DNA of 64,000 nt from positions 1,612,001 to 1,676,000 of the forward strand of contig NZ_LT629758.1 of the NCBI RefSeq assembly GCF_900104725.1, given 5' to 3'. The notes beneath the pieces were generated by a model. That model ran no database searches. It was not told the origin of the DNA and saw nothing but the letters and a program-made list of their open reading frames with translations. Both the position numbers and the translations under genes were made by a program. This document shows, piece after piece, positions 6,126 to 12,943 of the stretch. Within the stretch, counting starts at the first letter, position 1; the number at the start of each line of letters is the position of its first letter. Source of the DNA: Actinoplanes derwentensis. Lineage in GTDB: Bacteria; Actinomycetota; Actinomycetes; Mycobacteriales; Micromonosporaceae.

Positions 6126-6698
6126 TCAGAACCAGGAGGGCGGCCACCACCACATACGCTTCGGCGGCGTGGCGGCCAGCTTCGCCATGAAGGCGGCGTC
6201 CGCGGCGACCCGTGCAGCGGCTTCGGCGGCGAAATCGGCCTCGGTCATCAGATGAATGGGAATCGGTTCCGACACGTGCGGCAGCACGGGCTGGTTCGGG
6301 GAACTGTTCTCTCCGGGGAACCGGCCGTCACTGTCCGGGAACAGGACCTGCTGCAGACGCATGCCGTCTCTGCCGTACGCCTCGCGGGCGACCGCCGGAC
6401 CACCAGTCGACGACCAGGTGGCCACGTCACGGATCAGCACCCGGCCCGAGGACAGGACTGCCTGCTCCCCGTCGGCGAGGACCCGCCCCTCGGCGACCAG
6501 CCGGCCCAACTCCTCCAGAGGCCTCCCGGAGGAGTCGTAGGCCAGCAACTCGGGCCGCCCGAAGCTGGTCAGGCCCACTGTGTAGGAGAACAGCGGACCC
6601 CGGTCGCCCGCGTTGGGGACCAGAATGACGATTCCCCATCCGCGGTCCTTCATCAACTGCTCGCGGTCCCGGCGGTCGGGATCGGGCTCGAATGGCAA
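6126..6698 (-). CDS. DUF4262-family protein
   Basis: About 190 residues with the typical opening of DUF4262 proteins (DRRDREQLMKDRGWGIVIL, then PLFSYTVGLTSFGRPEL). The start is uncertain. TTG at 6698 is chosen because it lies just before the conserved domain with a GTGAGG upstream; ATG 6656 would cut into the domain, and an ATG more than 180 bases further upstream would add a low-complexity leader. The C-terminus ends in an unusual Trp-rich tail (MWWWPPSWF). The function of the family is unknown. The gene lies convergent with, and 16 bases from, the decayed permease. Confidence 0.65.
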   Translation of the reverse strand: MPFEPDPDRRDREQLMKDRGWGIVILVPNAGDRGPLFSYTVGLTSFGRPELLAYDSSGRPLEELGRLVAEGRVLADGEQAVLSSGRVLIRDVATWSSTGGPAVAREAYGRDGMRLQQVLFPDSDGRFPGENSSPNQPVLPHVSEPIPIHLMTEADFAAEAAARVAADAAFMAKLAATPPKRMWWWPPSWF

Positions 6699-6912
6699 TG
6701 TGGCCTCACTGGGAAAGACGGATCGGGGCGCGACGCCATGGTAGAGGCAGCCGGAAGTTGTCCGGTCACCGATTCGGCTGATGAGCCGATCGGTGTCTGG
6801 CGTGTCGTCATCCGCCGGTGACCGTGTGCCGTTGAGTGATGGCGCGGTCGGGCTTGTGGACGAGGAACCGGCCGCGACCAGTTCCATTCCTCGTCCACGG
6901 AGACACCGATCC

Positions 6913-7341
6913 GTGACTGAACAGCCGTACACCCCGACCCCTCACAGCGGCCCATCCGCGGCGCCCGTACCAGTCCAGCCGACTTACGGCCCCTCGACAG
7001 TTCCCGGCATGACCACGATGGTGGCTGCTCCGGCGAAGATGAGCCTGCACAAGAAGTTCGCGCTGGCCTATGTCGGCGTTCTCGTTGGTCTGACCGTCAT
7101 CGGCATCGCTGCCGGTGGAGATGGAGAGACTCCCGCCGGAGTACCCGTTGCGGCAGCCACCACCATGACCGTTGCGGAGCCGGTCACGGTTTTGACCGTC
7201 TCCGAGCAGAACGCTGTCGAAATGGCATCCGACTACCTGGAATACAGTGCGTTCTCCCGTTCCGGCCTGATCAATCAGCTCGAATACGATGGTTTCACCA
7301 CCGACCAGGCCGACCACGGCACCACTCAAGTGGGGCTGTAG
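6913..7341 (+). CDS. short Ltp-family membrane protein
   Basis: A 142-residue protein from GTG 6913 (GGAGA about nine bases upstream). A Pro/Thr-rich N-terminus (TEQPYTPTPHSGPSAAPVPV) leads to one membrane helix at about residues 54-75, then an external linker and a single Ltp-type repeat (MASDYLEYSAFSRSGLINQL, then EYDGFTTDQA). Ltp-family surface proteins usually carry two or more such repeats. Here the reading stops right after the first (TTQVGL), so it is either a natural single-repeat form or has lost a repeat. The repeats have been linked to phage-exclusion lipoproteins in Gram-positives; that role here is only a possibility. Confidence 0.65.
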   Translation: MTEQPYTPTPHSGPSAAPVPVQPTYGPSTVPGMTTMVAAPAKMSLHKKFALAYVGVLVGLTVIGIAAGGDGETPAGVPVAAATTMTVAEPVTVLTVSEQNAVEMASDYLEYSAFSRSGLINQLEYDGFTTDQADHGTTQVGL

Positions 7342-7347
7342 CGCCGG

Positions 7348-7956
7348 TCAGTGGGTTCGGCGGGTGGGGAGGCCGGCCAGCAGGGCGTCGAGGGCGTCGG
7401 TGTCGGCCCAGCCGTTCACCGACACGTCGCCGGAGGCGGTGACGATCACTTCGAGGCGGTCGGGGCCGGACACGTCCCGTAGACGGTCGGTGAGGTGCCG
7501 GAACTCCTGGTTGGACGAACCCAGCCACGGGCGCTCGTGATCGACGAGGTCCTGCCGGAACGGGCCCGCCACCAGCAGGTCCGTGTGGTCCAGGAGGGCG
7601 GCCACGGCACGGTTTCCTTCGACTGCTTGGGTACGGAGGTCCGCGTACTCGTACCCGGTGAAGGTCATCACCGTCAGTCCCGCGGCCTGGACACCGGCCG
7701 CGATGACGGCCAGACCGGCGGGCTGTTCGAACGGTTCGCCGCCGAGCAGGGTGACTCCGCTGGTGCCGGCCGCCACCACCCGGGCCACCAGGTCGGCGGG
7801 GTCGGTCAGGGTGCCGCCCCGCGTACCGAACAGGTGGGGGTTGAAACAGCCCGCGCAGCGGATCGTGCAGCCCTGCACCCAGATCGCGGTCCGCTCGCCG
7901 GGGCCCTCGGCGGTGGTCTGCTCCAAAACCCGGGCCACCCGGACCGGCTCAGACAT
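7348..7956 (-). CDS. 4Fe-4S radical-SAM activating protein (NrdG-like)
   Basis: A 202-residue protein starting at ATG 7956. It has the radical-SAM cluster motif CxxxCxxC at C30, C34 and C37 (WVQGCTIRCAGC) and the GGEP motif (LLGGEPFEQP). Length and layout match class III ribonucleotide-reductase activases, but no nrdD is present, so it probably activates or modifies another partner in this operon. It is the last gene of a minus-strand operon with the AAA ATPase, DUF1257, DUF2997 and HhH genes. Its 5' end has been tandemly duplicated (see the repeat at 7922-8002). Confidence 0.82.
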   Translation of the reverse strand: MSEPVRVARVLEQTTAEGPGERTAIWVQGCTIRCAGCFNPHLFGTRGGTLTDPADLVARVVAAGTSGVTLLGGEPFEQPAGLAVIAAGVQAAGLTVMTFTGYEYADLRTQAVEGNRAVAALLDHTDLLVAGPFRQDLVDHERPWLGSSNQEFRHLTDRLRDVSGPDRLEVIVTASGDVSVNGWADTDALDALLAGLPTRRTH

Positions 7957-8002
7957 TTCCGGCCCGGTCCAGCACCCGGGCGACCCGGACCGGCTCAGAC
8001 AT
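7922..8002 (-). repeat. 46-bp-period tandem duplication of the radical-SAM gene start
   Basis: Bases 7922-7956 and 7968-8002 are the same 35-base block with three mismatches. The copy at 7968-8002 repeats the first 11 codons of the radical-SAM gene (MSEPVRVARVL) out of frame. Starting at ATG 8002 it makes a 17-codon open frame whose TGA overlaps the true start codon. The upstream gene's own stop (7995-7997) lies inside this copy. Confidence 0.8.
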
Positions 8003-8954
8003 CGACGATACGTCCGAACGGCTGATCCTGGACGTGCTGCGGAGTCGCCGGGGGAGTGCAGGTCAGCCGGTCCCGGACCGCCACGAACTCGTGCGGGGCC
8101 AGCCCGGCGGTGGCCAGGAAATCGGCGACCGAATGGAAACCACCGCGCGCCAGCCGGGCCGAGACGACGGTGGCGGCACGTTCCGCGCTGAAACCGGGCA
8201 GGGCGGCGAACTCGTCCGGGCCGGCCCGGTTCACGTCGACCAGCCCGGACGGCTGCGGCGGCGGCGCGGGATGGTCGAACAGGTTCCGCGGGCCGAATTG
8301 TTCGCCGAACGCGGGTACCGGATCCGCCGGAACCGGCGACGGTGCATCGGGATAGGGCGGCGGGAGAGAGTGACCCGGCGTCGTGGTCGCGGCCTGCTGG
8401 AAAGCGGGACCGGCGGGAGCGATGTAGGGCTGCGGCGCCGGGTAGGGCGAGGCGGGCGGCGTACCAAAGGTGGGCGTGGGGTAGGCCGGTGTCGCATAGA
8501 ACTGGCCCGGCGCCGGGACCAGACCCTGCACCTGCGGCGGCAGCGGAGCCTGAGCGGGCCACGGCATCGGCTGCTGCGGCGGCAGATACCACGGGTGCTG
8601 AGCGGCCCGCCACCGCAACCACTCGGCGTTGATGATCAGCGCGTGCACCACCGAGATCATCCACGTGAACAGCACGCCCAGGGCCAGGAGCATCGACCAG
8701 ACCGAGTCGTCCGGAACCTCGGGACCGACGAAGAAAAAGACGTTGGCCAGCACCGAGTAGACGATCCCGGAGACCCACCACATCGGACGCCGCGCCCGGA
8801 TCCCGACGTAGCAGAACCCGGCCGCGCTCAGGCAGCCGAAACTCAGGATCGGCAGCAGCAGCCAGGCACTGTTCCCGATCCGCCACCACACCCGGCTCGG
8901 CCCGCGGGCCGGCTTGACCCCGTGGGGGTGACCGTCAGGCGGGGTCCACGTCAC
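7995..8954 (-). CDS. membrane protein with C-terminal helix-hairpin-helix domain
   Basis: 319 residues from GTG 8954, overlapping the DUF2997 gene end by 20 bases. Residues 20-125 contain three or four membrane helices (SAWLLLPILSFGCLSAAGFC; WVSGIVYSVLANVFFFVG; MLLALGVLFTWMISVVHALI). Residues 130-245 form a Pro/Ala/Gln-rich linker. Residues 250-310 are a ComEA-like helix-hairpin-helix (LVDVNRAGPDEFAALPGFS). HhH domains bind DNA or mediate protein contacts; a cytoplasmic HhH tethered to the membrane is unusual. It is part of the AAA-DUF1257-DUF2997-radical-SAM operon. Confidence 0.75.
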   Translation of the reverse strand: MTWTPPDGHPHGVKPARGPSRVWWRIGNSAWLLLPILSFGCLSAAGFCYVGIRARRPMWWVSGIVYSVLANVFFFVGPEVPDDSVWSMLLALGVLFTWMISVVHALIINAEWLRWRAAQHPWYLPPQQPMPWPAQAPLPPQVQGLVPAPGQFYATPAYPTPTFGTPPASPYPAPQPYIAPAGPAFQQAATTTPGHSLPPPYPDAPSPVPADPVPAFGEQFGPRNLFDHPAPPPQPSGLVDVNRAGPDEFAALPGFSAERAATVVSARLARGGFHSVADFLATAGLAPHEFVAVRDRLTCTPPATPQHVQDQPFGRIVDV

Positions 8955-9153
8955 GGTTCACCTGCTGATCCTGCACGAACGAGGTCTGGCGCGTGTAGTC
9001 GCTGGTGAAGGCGCTGTTCTGCACCTTGCCGTCGATCAGGTCCTCCAGCACGGCGATGTAGTCGAGGCAGTGGTCGCCGAGGATGTCCAGGGTCTCGGCG
9101 CTGACCGTGCCGTCGGGGTTGACGGTGACCACGATCCGGGGCTTGCCGGTCAC
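8935..9153 (-). CDS. DUF2997 protein
   Basis: A 72-residue protein from GTG 9153, overlapping the DUF1257 stop by four bases (GTGA). The N-terminal half has the beta-hairpin typical of DUF2997 (KPRIVVTVNPDGTVSAETL); the C-terminal half is an acidic helix with a Gln/Asp-rich tail. DUF2997 and DUF1257 genes are known neighbours in cyanobacteria and actinomycetes. Biochemical function is unknown. Confidence 0.75.
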   Translation of the reverse strand: MTGKPRIVVTVNPDGTVSAETLDILGDHCLDYIAVLEDLIDGKVQNSAFTSDYTRQTSFVQDQQVNRDVDPA

Positions 9154-9587
9154 GTCCGCTCCACCTCGAAGACCAGCCGCACTCCGGCGTTGTCGTCGAC
9201 CGTCTCGGACTCCAGCCGCAGTCCGGCGGCGGGTGCCTGATCGCGCAGCCGCTCCAGCACGGTCTGCTGCACCCGGCGGCCGTAGGCGGCGTCTGTCGCG
9301 GTCACCAGCTCGACCGCGCGGGCCTGGTCGGCGCCGGTGAAGTGGGCACCCCAGATGCCCTCGGTGTCGCAGGCGAAAGTGGCGCCGACCTCGCCCCACA
9401 CGGCGGTCATCCGGTCGTCCGCGGTCGTCACCGTGGCGCCGGTGTCGCGCAGCGCGTCAGCCAGCAGGGTGACGTCGCGCATCCGGGTCCGGACCTGGCA
9501 GACGCCGTCGGCGCCACGGTCGGAAGCGGCTTTGATCGCGGCCGCACCGGCCACTGCCAGCGGCACCAGAAGTAGTGTCACACTCAC
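9150..9587 (-). CDS. DUF1257 (Ycf35-like) protein
   Basis: About 145 residues from GTG 9587, preceded by a G-rich site. The family assignment rests on size, the N-terminal small helix followed by a VRTRMRDVTLLADALRD-type strand-helix, and position directly beside DUF2997 and a Ycf46-like ATPase; the sequence is less conserved than the chloroplast Ycf35 form. A short hydrophobic N-terminus (SVTLLLVPLAVAGAAAIKAA) could anchor it in the membrane. Its function is unknown. It overlaps the DUF2997 gene by four bases and lies 35 bases after the AAA gene. Confidence 0.65.
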   Translation of the reverse strand: MSVTLLLVPLAVAGAAAIKAASDRGADGVCQVRTRMRDVTLLADALRDTGATVTTADDRMTAVWGEVGATFACDTEGIWGAHFTGADQARAVELVTATDAAYGRRVQQTVLERLRDQAPAAGLRLESETVDDNAGVRLVFEVERT

Positions 9588-9622
9588 GGCGAACCCCCGT
9601 TCCTCGTCGGTGTGCCGACACC

Positions 9623-11194
9623 TTACCGCCCGGACATGTCCCAGTCGTCGGTGCCGGTTGCCGAAACCGCCCTGGTGCGAGCCCAGCCGCGCAGCGCGTC
9701 GAGGCGTTCGGCCTGGGTGACGCTCAGCGGCACGATGCTCATCACCGCGCGCACCAGGTCGTCGCGGCTCAGCGGACGCCGTTCGGAGAAGGCGTCGAAC
9801 AGCCCGGCGGTGACGGCCTGTTCGATCTCGGCGCCGGAGTACCCCTCGGTCAGCCCGGACAGTTCGAGGAACAGTTCGTCGCCCTCCGGTAGTCCACCGG
9901 CGGCCCGGGGATGGCGCATCGCCCGCCGCAGATGCACCTGCCACACCGCGATCCGCTCGGCCCGGGTGGGCAGGTCGACGAAGAACGTCTCGTCGAACCG
10001 GCCCTTGCGCAGCAGTTCCGACGGCAGGCCCTCGAAGTCGTTGGCGGTGGCGATCACGAACACCGGATGCTGTTTCTCCTGCATCCAGGTGAGGAAGGTG
10101 CCGAACACCCGGGAGCCGGTGCCGGAGTCACCCGTCCCGGACGCGAACCCCTTCTCGATCTCGTCGATCCACAGCACACACGGCGCGATCGCCTCGGCCG
10201 TACGCAGCGCGGTCCGCATGTTGTGCTCGCTGGATCCGACCAGACCGGAGAAGACCCGGCCGATGTCCAGGCGCAGCAGCGGCAGGTTCCAGACGGCGGC
10301 GACGGCTTTCGCGGTCAGTGACTTGCCGCAGCCGGGCACACCGGTGATCAGCACCCCGCGCGGGACGGGCAGCCCGTAGTCGGCGGCGTCGGCGAGCCAC
10401 GATCCGTTGCGTTTGACCAGCCAGGCCTTCAGCTTCTCCAGACCGCCGACGTCGTCGAGCACGGTGTCGGTGGTGACGATCTCCAGCAAGCCCGACTTTC
10501 GTACGGTCTGACGCTTCTCGTCGTGCACGATGTCCAGGTCGTCCAGGTCCAGCACCGGGCTGTTGACCATGGCCCGGGCGTACGCGTTCTCCGCCTCCTG
10601 CATCGTCAGCCCGGCCGCCGCGGCGACGAACCGTTCACGCCCCGTCTCGTCCAGGTCGACCCGCAGCCGGCCGCTGGCCGTGTTCGAGCTGATCATCGTT
10701 TCCAGCAGCACCCGCCGCTGGGTCTCGCCGGGCAGCGGGTAGTCGACGATCGTGACGTCCTTGGACAGCTCGGCCGGGATCGCCAGAACCGGGGAGAGCA
10801 GCACCAGCGTGCGCGGGTGCAGGCCGCTGCGGAACACCTGGGCGATGTCGCGCAGCAGCCGGACCGGCTCCATGTTCTGCGGGTACTGCCCGTCCTGCAG
10901 CAGCGGATGCAGGTCACGGAAGACGAAGACGGCCGGCTCCTCGATGCGCTGGATCGCCTGCAGCGCGTCGACCGGTCGCAGACCGCCGGCTCGGGGCTGC
11001 CCGTCCTGGTGGATCAGGCCGCGGGTGGCCGTCCACGTCCACACCCCGCGCGGAATCCGCACCTGGTCGGTGTCCCGGGCGATCGCCGCGATCTCGTGCA
11101 GGGCCCGCTGCTCTTCGAACGACTCCAGGTAGAGGATCGGGAACCGGGCCTTCAGCAGTTGCGCGAAGGTCGCCGCGAAGGACCTGTGGTTCAT
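9623..11194 (-). CDS. Ycf46-like AAA+ ATPase
   Basis: 523 residues from ATG 11194. The N-terminal half (1-230) is the Ycf46-specific region (ARFPILYLESFEEQRALHEI) with an inactive-looking ATPase fold. The C-terminal AAA+ module has Walker A GVPGCGKS at about residues 285-292, Walker B VLWIDEIEKG at about 340-349, sensor-1 TAND and an arginine-finger-like ELLRKGRFDE. Ycf46 relatives are Cdc48-like cytoplasmic ATPases linked to carbon uptake in cyanobacteria; the actinomycete role is unknown. It is the first gene of the five-gene minus-strand operon and probably drives remodelling of the DUF1257/DUF2997 partners. Confidence 0.85.
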   Translation of the reverse strand: MNHRSFAATFAQLLKARFPILYLESFEEQRALHEIAAIARDTDQVRIPRGVWTWTATRGLIHQDGQPRAGGLRPVDALQAIQRIEEPAVFVFRDLHPLLQDGQYPQNMEPVRLLRDIAQVFRSGLHPRTLVLLSPVLAIPAELSKDVTIVDYPLPGETQRRVLLETMISSNTASGRLRVDLDETGRERFVAAAAGLTMQEAENAYARAMVNSPVLDLDDLDIVHDEKRQTVRKSGLLEIVTTDTVLDDVGGLEKLKAWLVKRNGSWLADAADYGLPVPRGVLITGVPGCGKSLTAKAVAAVWNLPLLRLDIGRVFSGLVGSSEHNMRTALRTAEAIAPCVLWIDEIEKGFASGTGDSGTGSRVFGTFLTWMQEKQHPVFVIATANDFEGLPSELLRKGRFDETFFVDLPTRAERIAVWQVHLRRAMRHPRAAGGLPEGDELFLELSGLTEGYSGAEIEQAVTAGLFDAFSERRPLSRDDLVRAVMSIVPLSVTQAERLDALRGWARTRAVSATGTDDWDMSGR

Positions 11195-11386: not shown

Positions 11387-12943
11387 GTGACACTCCACCG
11401 CACGTCAGCAGCGAGCGCGGGCCTCCTCGCGCTGGGGCTGAGCGCGATCGTCGGTTACGGCACGCCCGCCGTCGCCGCCGAGCCCACCGGCACCATCCTG
11501 GCCGCCGGTTCACCGGACGCCATCGAGGGCAGCTACATCGTCGTCCTCAAGGACGGCACCACCACGACGGCCACCACACTCGCCGGCCGGTACGACGGCA
11601 CGGTCGAAGAGGTCTACGCGAAGGCGATCAAGGGCTTCGAAACCAGGATCGATGCCGACGACGCGGCGAAACTGGCCGCCGACCCGGCCGTCGCCTACGT
11701 CGAACAGAACCAGATCATCCGCCTGGCCGCCGGCACCCAGACCGGCGCCACCTGGGGCCTGGACCGGATCGACCAGGCGAGCCTGCCGCTGTCGACCACC
11801 TACACGTACCCGAACACCGCGTCGAGCGTGCACGCCTACATCATCGACACCGGCATCCTGACCACGCACTCGCAGTTCGGCGGGCGCGCGACCAGCGGTT
11901 ACGACTTCGTCGACAGCGACAGCAACGCCACCGACTGCAACGGCCACGGCACTCACGTCGCCGGTACCGTCGGCGGCTCCACCTACGGCGTGGCCAAACA
12001 AGTGCAGCTCGTCGCGGTCCGGGTCCTCGACTGCGAGGGCAGCGGCACCACGGCCGGCGTCATCTCCGGCATCAACTGGGTCACCAGCAACGCGATCAAA
12101 CCGGCCGTGGCGAACATGAGCCTCGGCGGCGCCGCCAGCACCACCCTCGACACCGCCGTGTCGAACTCGATCGCGGCCGGCATCACCTACGGCGTCGCGG
12201 CCGGCAACGACAACGCCAACGCGTCCAGTTACTCCCCGGCCCGTGTCACCAGCGCCATCACGGTCGGCGCGACCGCCAGCACGGACGCCCGCGCCAGCTA
12301 CTCCAACTACGGCAGCGTCCTGGACATCTTCGCGCCCGGCACGTCGATCACCTCGGCCTGGTACACCAGCACCACCGCGACCAGCACCATCAGCGGCACC
12401 TCGATGGCCACCCCGCACGTCGTCGGCGCGGCCGCCCTGGTCCTGCAGGACAACCCGTCCTACACCCCCGCCCAGGTCGCCTCGACCCTGACCACCAACG
12501 CGGTCGCCAGCAAGGTCACCAGCCCCGGCACCGGCTCGCCGAACCTGCTCCTGCAGGTCGGCACCGGCGGCGGAGGCGAGACCCCCACCCCCACCGGCTG
12601 CACCGGCACCAACGGCACCGCCGTCAGCATCCCCGACGCCGGTTCCGCGGTGACCAGCTCGATCACCGTCTCCGGCTGCGGCCGCTCGGCCTCGTCGGCC
12701 TCGTCGATCGCGGTCGACATCACCCACACCTACCGCGGTGACCTGACCATCGCACTGGTCGCCCCGGACGGCACCAGCTACGCGCTGAAGGCCAGCAGCA
12801 GCTCGGACAGCACCGACAACGTCAACACCACCTACACCGCGAACCTGTCCAGCGAGGCTGCCGACGGCACCTGGCAGCTCAAGGTCCAGGACGTCTACTC
12901 CTCGGACACCGGCACCATCAACTCCTGGACCCTCACGGTCTGA
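11387..12943 (+). CDS. secreted subtilisin-like S8 protease with P domain
   Basis: 518 residues from GTG 11387 (AGGGG just upstream). It has a Sec signal peptide (residues 1-30, ending AVAAE), an I9 propeptide (about 45-110, SYIVVLKDG to AYVEQNQ), then the S8 domain with catalytic Asp154 (YIIDTG), His187 (GHGTHVAG) and Ser339 (SGTSMATPH). A Gly/Thr-Pro linker leads to a C-terminal P/Homo B domain (about 403-518; HTYRGDLTIALVAPDGTSY, ending SWTLTV). It is probably an exported, self-maturing proteinase. The P domain is about 60% identical by eye to that of the HNH nuclease gene 1.8 kb downstream. Confidence 0.93.
   Translation: MTLHRTSAASAGLLALGLSAIVGYGTPAVAAEPTGTILAAGSPDAIEGSYIVVLKDGTTTTATTLAGRYDGTVEEVYAKAIKGFETRIDADDAAKLAADPAVAYVEQNQIIRLAAGTQTGATWGLDRIDQASLPLSTTYTYPNTASSVHAYIIDTGILTTHSQFGGRATSGYDFVDSDSNATDCNGHGTHVAGTVGGSTYGVAKQVQLVAVRVLDCEGSGTTAGVISGINWVTSNAIKPAVANMSLGGAASTTLDTAVSNSIAAGITYGVAAGNDNANASSYSPARVTSAITVGATASTDARASYSNYGSVLDIFAPGTSITSAWYTSTTATSTISGTSMATPHVVGAAALVLQDNPSYTPAQVASTLTTNAVASKVTSPGTGSPNLLLQVGTGGGGETPTPTGCTGTNGTAVSIPDAGSAVTSSITVSGCGRSASSASSIAVDITHTYRGDLTIALVAPDGTSYALKASSSSDSTDNVNTTYTANLSSEAADGTWQLKVQDVYSSDTGTINSWTLTV

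Follow-up and report, generated by a model that had tools for sequence, protein, structure and literature searches.

What do five adjacent genes of the actinomycete Actinoplanes derwentensis, whose products include an ATPase, a membrane protein and a radical S-adenosylmethionine (radical-SAM) enzyme, do together? The window analysed here is the whole stretch of 64,000 nucleotides from position 1,612,001 to 1,676,000 of contig NZ_LT629758.1 (assembly GCF_900104725.1), taken from a genome of 10.65 Mb in a single contig. The five consecutive genes, all on its minus strand, lie between positions 7348 and 11194 and encode an AAA+ ATPase, a DUF1257-like protein, a DUF2997 protein, a membrane protein with a helix-hairpin-helix (HhH) domain and the radical-SAM enzyme. 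Our reading, to which we give a little less than an even chance, is that they specify a membrane-anchored remodelling complex of the AAA+ type, together with a radical-SAM activase dedicated to it and with membrane partners docked through a C-terminal tail. The initial annotation of the window held that no function is established for this set in actinomycetes, and none was found in the literature searched, which was mostly open-access and leaves an earlier description possible.

The five-gene operon and its conservation

The ATPase (9623..11194, 523 amino acids, ATG start) matches Pfam AAA at E = 1.5e-30 and has an intact C-terminal AAA domain, with residues 285, 340, 381 and 394 marking what we take to be Walker A, Walker B, sensor 1 and the arginine-finger region, respectively. 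The Pfam match and the located motifs place it among the AAA+ ATPases. Its matches to curated models are to generic CDC48/FtsH-class proteins, far under the cut-offs, and none of the models matched is named Ycf46. The N-terminal half is possibly a degenerate AAA module, as suggested by a weak hhalign match between the two halves (E = 0.003, probability 10%).

The second gene (9150..9587, 145 amino acids, GTG start) encodes a divergent DUF1257-like protein with a hydrophobic N-terminus and no Pfam match. It is followed by the DUF2997 protein (8935..9153, 72 amino acids, with a GxxC motif), which matches PF11211 at E = 2.1e-15 (56.7 bits, with a cut-off of 24.1). The membrane protein (7995..8954) carries a proline-rich linker, an HhH domain (HHH_3, E = 4.3e-9) and a C-terminal tail encoded by the codons for GRIVDV plus the stop (7995..8015, found by its match to the tail pattern). 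The last gene (7348..7956) encodes an NrdG-like radical-SAM activase of 202 amino acids with the CxxxCxxC motif (Fer4_12, E = 2.5e-27). The AAA, DUF2997, HHH_3 and Fer4_12 matches exceed their Pfam cut-offs, and the Radical_SAM match of the activase falls below its own. Overlapping or closely spaced genes had been described here, and this arrangement is borne out: the stop of the DUF1257-like gene and the start of the DUF2997 gene share GTGA (9150..9153), and the DUF2997 and HhH genes overlap by 20 bases (8935..8954).

The proposal that the five genes form one system had been tied to their conservation together in other genomes, and a neighbourhood search shows that the set is conserved. Profiles detected all five parts in 76 loci of Actinomycetota, Bacillota, Bacteroidota and Melainabacteria, counted after removal of 3-kb duplicates and with a few genomes entering twice (L043/L129, L155/L234). 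The parts lie on one strand in 76/76 of these loci and appear in 15 gene orders; an order that is shuffled while the strand is kept is what would be expected of a functional unit. Outside the 76, two loci (L055 and L368) have one part on the opposite strand.

The distribution of DUF2997 is rare but recurrent. PF11211 was found in 17 of the 67 genus genomes, in 3 of 150 sampled genomes of the order and in 3 of 396 in a sample of the phylum (one of them below the cut-off), the window's own genome being counted each time. It was also found in 4 of 341 genomes in the class of a Clostridium and 1 of 296 in the phylum of a Tenacibaculum (central genomes counted), and in 36 of 146 in the order of a Gastranaerophilales genome. 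All five genes were detected by tblastn in each of the 17 genus loci, and again in the 16 that were refetched. A genome of another family (G118) has them in the order ATPase, DUF2997, radical-SAM, DUF1257, HhH.

A genome scan driven by the ATPase covered the best 80 of at least 559 loci and leans to close kin. The radical-SAM gene was present in 31 of the 80, accompanied by DUF2997 in 28, DUF1257 in 27 and HhH in 25; the 49 loci lacking it had DUF2997 in 6, DUF1257 in 11 and HhH in 2. In the Gastranaerophilales sample anchored on DUF2997, 31 of 34 loci had the complete set of five. Nine plasmid records were opened out of 1553 that matched the ATPase (68 of which matched over 80% of its length), and three of the nine, all actinobacterial, have the five genes in the order of the window; seven of 139 plasmid records matching the enzyme and one of 132 phage records were also opened. 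The 72-residue DUF2997 protein, used as a tblastn query against plasmids, gave no match.

A C-terminal tail shared by the ATPases and the membrane proteins

The initial annotation missed the main feature, which is common to two non-homologous parts of the set, as it missed the enzyme branch and the viral and spirochaete loci described below. The ATPases and the membrane HhH proteins share a C-terminal tail with the consensus [G/E]R-x-[ILV]-D-[hydrophobic]; at most HhH-type loci the ATPase version reads RGGR-x-[LIV]-D-[hydrophobic]. A first set of loci brought the tail to light, with 58/58 HhH proteins carrying it; these had been collected with a profile without the last 22 residues, and up to two extra residues were allowed. 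Only 3 of 1130 other open reading frames (ORFs) in that set carried it, all of them in HhH-type loci and membrane proteins by eye: a transmembrane (TM) Mrr nuclease, a rhomboid-like protein and one protein without a family.

The tail was then tested on the Gastranaerophilales set of 34 loci, which holds relatives of some loci of the first set. It was found on 34/34 ATPases and 35/39 HhH proteins, the four misses being close variants (ERxVD in three, ERILDLDE in the other), and on 0/37 DUF1257 and 0/33 radical-SAM proteins. Among ORFs outside the core it occurred in 3 of 919, again all membrane proteins by eye, two of them with an Mrr_cat domain. Across 123 HhH ends, duplicate loci included and not picked by the tail pattern, the arginine is present in 117 and the aspartate at position -2 in 116; among 67 ATPase ends, picked by a pattern requiring D or E there, D stands at position -2 in 59.

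Apparently membrane-anchored, tailed Mrr_cat nucleases are encoded at L057:7809-8546, L344:2654-3412 and L348:15900-16646. Moreover, seven consecutive HhH ORFs, each of them tailed, lie upstream of the radical-SAM and ATPase genes in a rumen bacterium (L065:2290-7329).

The tail looks confined to this locus. Its codon pattern occurred 51 times in 15 genomes, genes of the system included, and 53 times for a backward control. Among the matches read, for which 30 loci were fetched, every in-frame ORF of at least 60 amino acids was a protein of the system. The genome of the window holds five matches; of the three fetched, only 7995..8015 terminates an ORF of at least 60 amino acids. There was thus no sign, among the matches read, of tailed client proteins scattered through these genomes.

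Within the locus, it is the membrane module, not the enzyme, that the tail tracks. Outside the own-phylum set, a GR tail is found on the ATPase in 54 of 58 enzyme loci with an HhH gene and in 3 of 28 without one (p = 2e-14, to be taken as a guide only, the rows being related). Excluded from the comparison were 3-kb duplicates, identical C-termini, and ATPases that scored below 400 bits or were truncated at a contig end; among enzyme loci the own-phylum PF11211 set, in which the GR tail occurs in 3/16, was excluded as well. Of the three exceptions, L096 encodes a tailed membrane protein of a different kind, L284 is the second, and L348 has HhH genes that fall under the score limit of the test, yet were seen in another search. 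Since the tail goes with the HhH proteins, it is read here as a docking address.

A distinct branch of radical-SAM enzymes

The enzyme shares its size, the CxxxCxxC motif and the Fer4_12 domain with NrdG and with pyruvate formate-lyase activase, which is its best solved match. The three motif cysteines are present in all 14 aligned rows, a distant one (L028) having a longer first spacing. However, the enzyme scores 84.2 bits with the NrdG model TIGR02491, whose cut-off of 126.1 it does not reach. It had been described as an activase without its ribonucleotide reductase, and this holds: NrdD was found in 0/19 carrier genomes (the window's own, 16 genus-mates, G077 and G118), while it is present in 20 of the 33 genomes of the scan loci. 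The possibility that the gene is found mainly next to nrdD was not borne out either, as no NrdD turned up in the fetched sequence, up to 8 kb away, for any of the 31 radical-SAM genes among the scan loci.

A tree of 133 sequences, built without near-copies of the genus and repeats, puts every one of the 34 HhH-locus enzymes in one branch of 47 with support 96/91, and no NrdD-linked row belongs to it. The branch further contains five proteobacterial plasmid enzymes, two from core loci in which no HhH gene was found and six rows without known neighbours. An ordinary NrdG is rejected by this separate branch together with the lack of NrdD in the carrier genomes and within 8 kb of the genes.

The five proteobacterial plasmid operons (L031-L034 and L038) encode an AAA-domain protein, a PIN protein, a hypothetical protein, an AAA_2-type ATPase and the radical-SAM enzyme. 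The AAA_2-type protein is ClpB-like by eye, Pfam having been run on one operon, and the whole looks like another undescribed system.

Enzymes encoded beside the core on viral contigs fall at several other places of the tree, some near NrdD-linked rows and several on long branches. The pairing of the AAA core with an NrdG-like enzyme may therefore have arisen more than once. A Gly_radical domain is encoded in 11 of the 19 carrier genomes, including that of the window, where it occurs in two places elsewhere in the genome; the other 8 gave no match. The enzyme may thus have a distant glycyl-radical target in those 11 genomes.

Proposed mechanism

We infer a machine of the following kind. The ATPase ring, with the DUF1257 and DUF2997 proteins as steady partners, would form the core, and the dedicated NrdG-type enzyme would activate or modify a component or a client of it. 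The membrane module would comprise the TM-HhH proteins and, often, a DUF1257 protein with a hydrophobic N-terminus, which is seen in 53 of 81 rows with HhH and in 7 of 39 without. The tail, R-x-hydrophobic-D-hydrophobic-COOH, would serve as a docking address by which the ATPase and the membrane proteins insert into the same kind of pocket; DUF1257 is our first guess for the common docking partner. The ring would in this way reach membrane proteins whose domains bind DNA (HhH) or resemble nucleases (Mrr), and would remodel or extract them. The presence of these domains on tailed membrane proteins is a hint that DNA is handled at the membrane. In the genus of the window the ATPase would mostly have lost the tail, leaving it to the HhH protein, which keeps it in 17/17 loci.

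Docking by C-terminal peptides is familiar from the proteasomal ATPases, whose HbYX tail consists of a hydrophobic residue, tyrosine and any residue at the C-terminus. Cdc48/p97 and the proteasomal ATPases belong to the same AAA family and likewise have a short conserved C-terminus with a hydrophobic last residue. However, the penultimate residue here is D or E rather than tyrosine, so the sequence is not an HbYX motif; the tail is, moreover, shared with membrane proteins, and no proteasome partner is implied.

A more specific version of this mechanism, possible but doubtful, makes the machine radical-SAM-controlled: an altered component would let the ring engage or release the tailed membrane proteins through their common C-terminal address. 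This would be a tag-and-receptor system whose mostly tagless core is carried by viruses. As a code for assembly, a tag common to several non-homologous products of one operon (AAA ATPase, TM-HhH protein, TM-Mrr nuclease and TPR protein) would be out of the ordinary.

Several observations weigh against the tail-docked complex. The ATPase of the window ends in WDMSGR, without the tail, and 16 of the 17 genus ATPases lack it, which makes the ATPase tail dispensable there. Conversely, L372 and L377 have a tailed ATPase with neither an HhH gene nor an enzyme found alongside, and the tailed ATPase of L368 stands without HhH. One of 34 DUF2997 ORFs in the Gastranaerophilales set matches the tail pattern, which the model did not foresee. 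The hydrophobic N-terminus is missing from 28 of the 81 DUF1257 rows of HhH loci. Finally, membrane segments were assigned by crude hydropathy or by reading, and hydropathy supports them in 89 of 97 distinct HhH proteins.

Alternative explanations

The tail could instead be the substrate of the radical-SAM enzyme, which would modify or cleave the C-terminus of the ATPase and HhH proteins. Activases of the glycyl-radical kind work on sites close to the C-terminus of the proteins they target. A GR tail is found on 21 of 31 scan-locus ATPases with the enzyme and on 2 of 49 without, both of the latter (L050, L055) from loci cut by a contig end; 57 of 74 ATPases in loci with both HhH and enzyme carry the tail, almost all tailed ATPases have GG ahead of the arginine, and the HhH tail of the genus is kept alongside the enzyme in all 17 loci. 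We nevertheless consider this unlikely, given that 25 of 28 enzyme loci without HhH carry no such tail and that L372 and L377 are tailed with no enzyme found near by. Glutamate, moreover, precedes the arginine in 34 of the 123 HhH tails; a glycyl radical at the tail glycine is therefore rejected as a general rule.

It is also unlikely, in our view, that the operon is an anti-phage or plasmid-conflict system in which the AAA ring unleashes membrane-bound HhH DNA-binding proteins or Mrr nucleases. Such a role would fit a set that is patchy (17 of 67 genus genomes) and plasmid-borne, that includes Mrr_cat domains on three tailed proteins and whose enzyme branch is shared with the PIN/AAA plasmid operons. 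The best PADLOC match of the ATPase is IetA of the IetAS anti-phage system (71.9 bits), but this looks like a generic AAA match. The partner of IetA is an S8 protease, and the operon has no protease; a divergent S8 subtilase gene (11387-12943, with I9 prodomain, S8 and P domains) adjoins it, and a subtilase lies near the cassette in 2 of the 16 other genus loci (L125, L131), with a partial match in L128. PADLOC matched none of the DUF1257-like, DUF2997 and HhH proteins of the window, nor two Clostridium relatives. The defence-island reading is weakened by the Gastranaerophilales neighbours, which resemble housekeeping genes as judged from ORFs read by eye with no family search. The core is also carried by viral contigs.

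Many viral contigs have the ATPase, DUF1257 and DUF2997, and some also the radical-SAM gene (L236-L247, L187-L190, L297-L313). HhH was found in a single one (L155, the same as L234), which closely resembles Gastranaerophilales loci and may be host DNA. In L239, L241-L243 and L246 the viral ATPase terminates in RRRIM[SN] or RRRVMN. Spirochaete loci are a further group, with the ATPase and radical-SAM genes in L024, L084 and L089 and DUF2997 in two of them (L084, L089). They adjoin contractile-injection genes, annotated in L024 and apparent in L084:3144-11660 and L089:2567-11919, and their ATPases end in RKLEM, RQLELNK and RKIEMK.

The initial annotation had offered the DUF2997 protein as the substrate of the activase. 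It is small, usually encoded near by, and has invariant glycine and cysteine residues, and some positions follow the enzyme: D33 and Y34 are conserved at 0.71 each with it and at most 0.30 without, and Y34 and T52 are among the positions better conserved in its presence, which may reflect kinship. However, in 56 rows with the enzyme and 30 without (alignment numbering), conservation is 1.00 and 1.00 for G17, 1.00 and 0.97 for G28, and 1.00 and 1.00 for C31. The proposal is disfavoured because these invariant residues are independent of the enzyme; cyanobacterial plasmid loci and several viral loci also keep DUF2997 with no enzyme found. We regard it as improbable.

That an ordinary nrdG merely lies by chance beside unrelated genes is scarcely credible and already refuted, for although pyruvate formate-lyase activase is the nearest solved relative that the enzyme family has, the conserved co-occurrence on one strand (76/76), the 19 carriers in which no NrdD was found and the separate enzyme branch all speak against it.

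The DUF1257-like protein and cyanobacterial relatives

The identification of the 9150..9587 product as DUF1257 stands in part. PF06868 (DUF1257) matches neither this protein nor any other in the whole genome, and the product is better described, by profile comparison, as a divergent relative of DUF1257. A profile trained solely on 79 DUF1257-like rows from HhH-type loci detects the annotated Pseudanabaena DUF1257 (L025) at E = 2e-7 and a planctomycete protein (L104) at E = 1e-6, the latter called DUF1257 by Pfam at E = 1.1e-26, and it gave 0 matches in a reversed-ORF control. It missed three annotated DUF1257 proteins of other plasmids (L026-L028), and direct hhalign of two small seed sets gave a weak probability of 21%. 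Searches of the PDB with DUF2997 and DUF1257 returned no credible match.

Cyanobacteria carry DUF1257 (Ycf35), DUF2997 and Ycf46, and many plastids carry the first and the last of these; we know of no agreed function for any of the three. Through the operon, relatives of these proteins are linked to a defined radical-SAM enzyme and to membrane proteins that commonly bear the tail, so that an unsolved problem of annotation can be put to simple tests. Three cyanobacterial plasmids have related AAA ATPases near DUF2997 and DUF1257, as here; unlike in the window, no radical-SAM gene, HhH protein or GR tail was found in these loci. Cyanobacterial DUF2997 and Ycf35 are listed with the ferredoxin fed7 (PMC4284462), a cluster which likewise combines DUF2997 and DUF1257 with an iron-sulfur partner. 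Ycf46 has been reported to have a bearing on CO2 use.

Other features of the locus

The start of the radical-SAM gene lies in a 46-bp out-of-frame tandem duplication (7911-8002). The ATG at 8002 leads through 17 codons to a stop, and the gene opens at the ATG at 7956. Beyond the operon, a DUF4262 ORF on the minus strand (6126-6932) and the start of an Ltp-lipoprotein-like ORF on the plus strand (6781-7341) overlap, and one of the two starts is probably misplaced.

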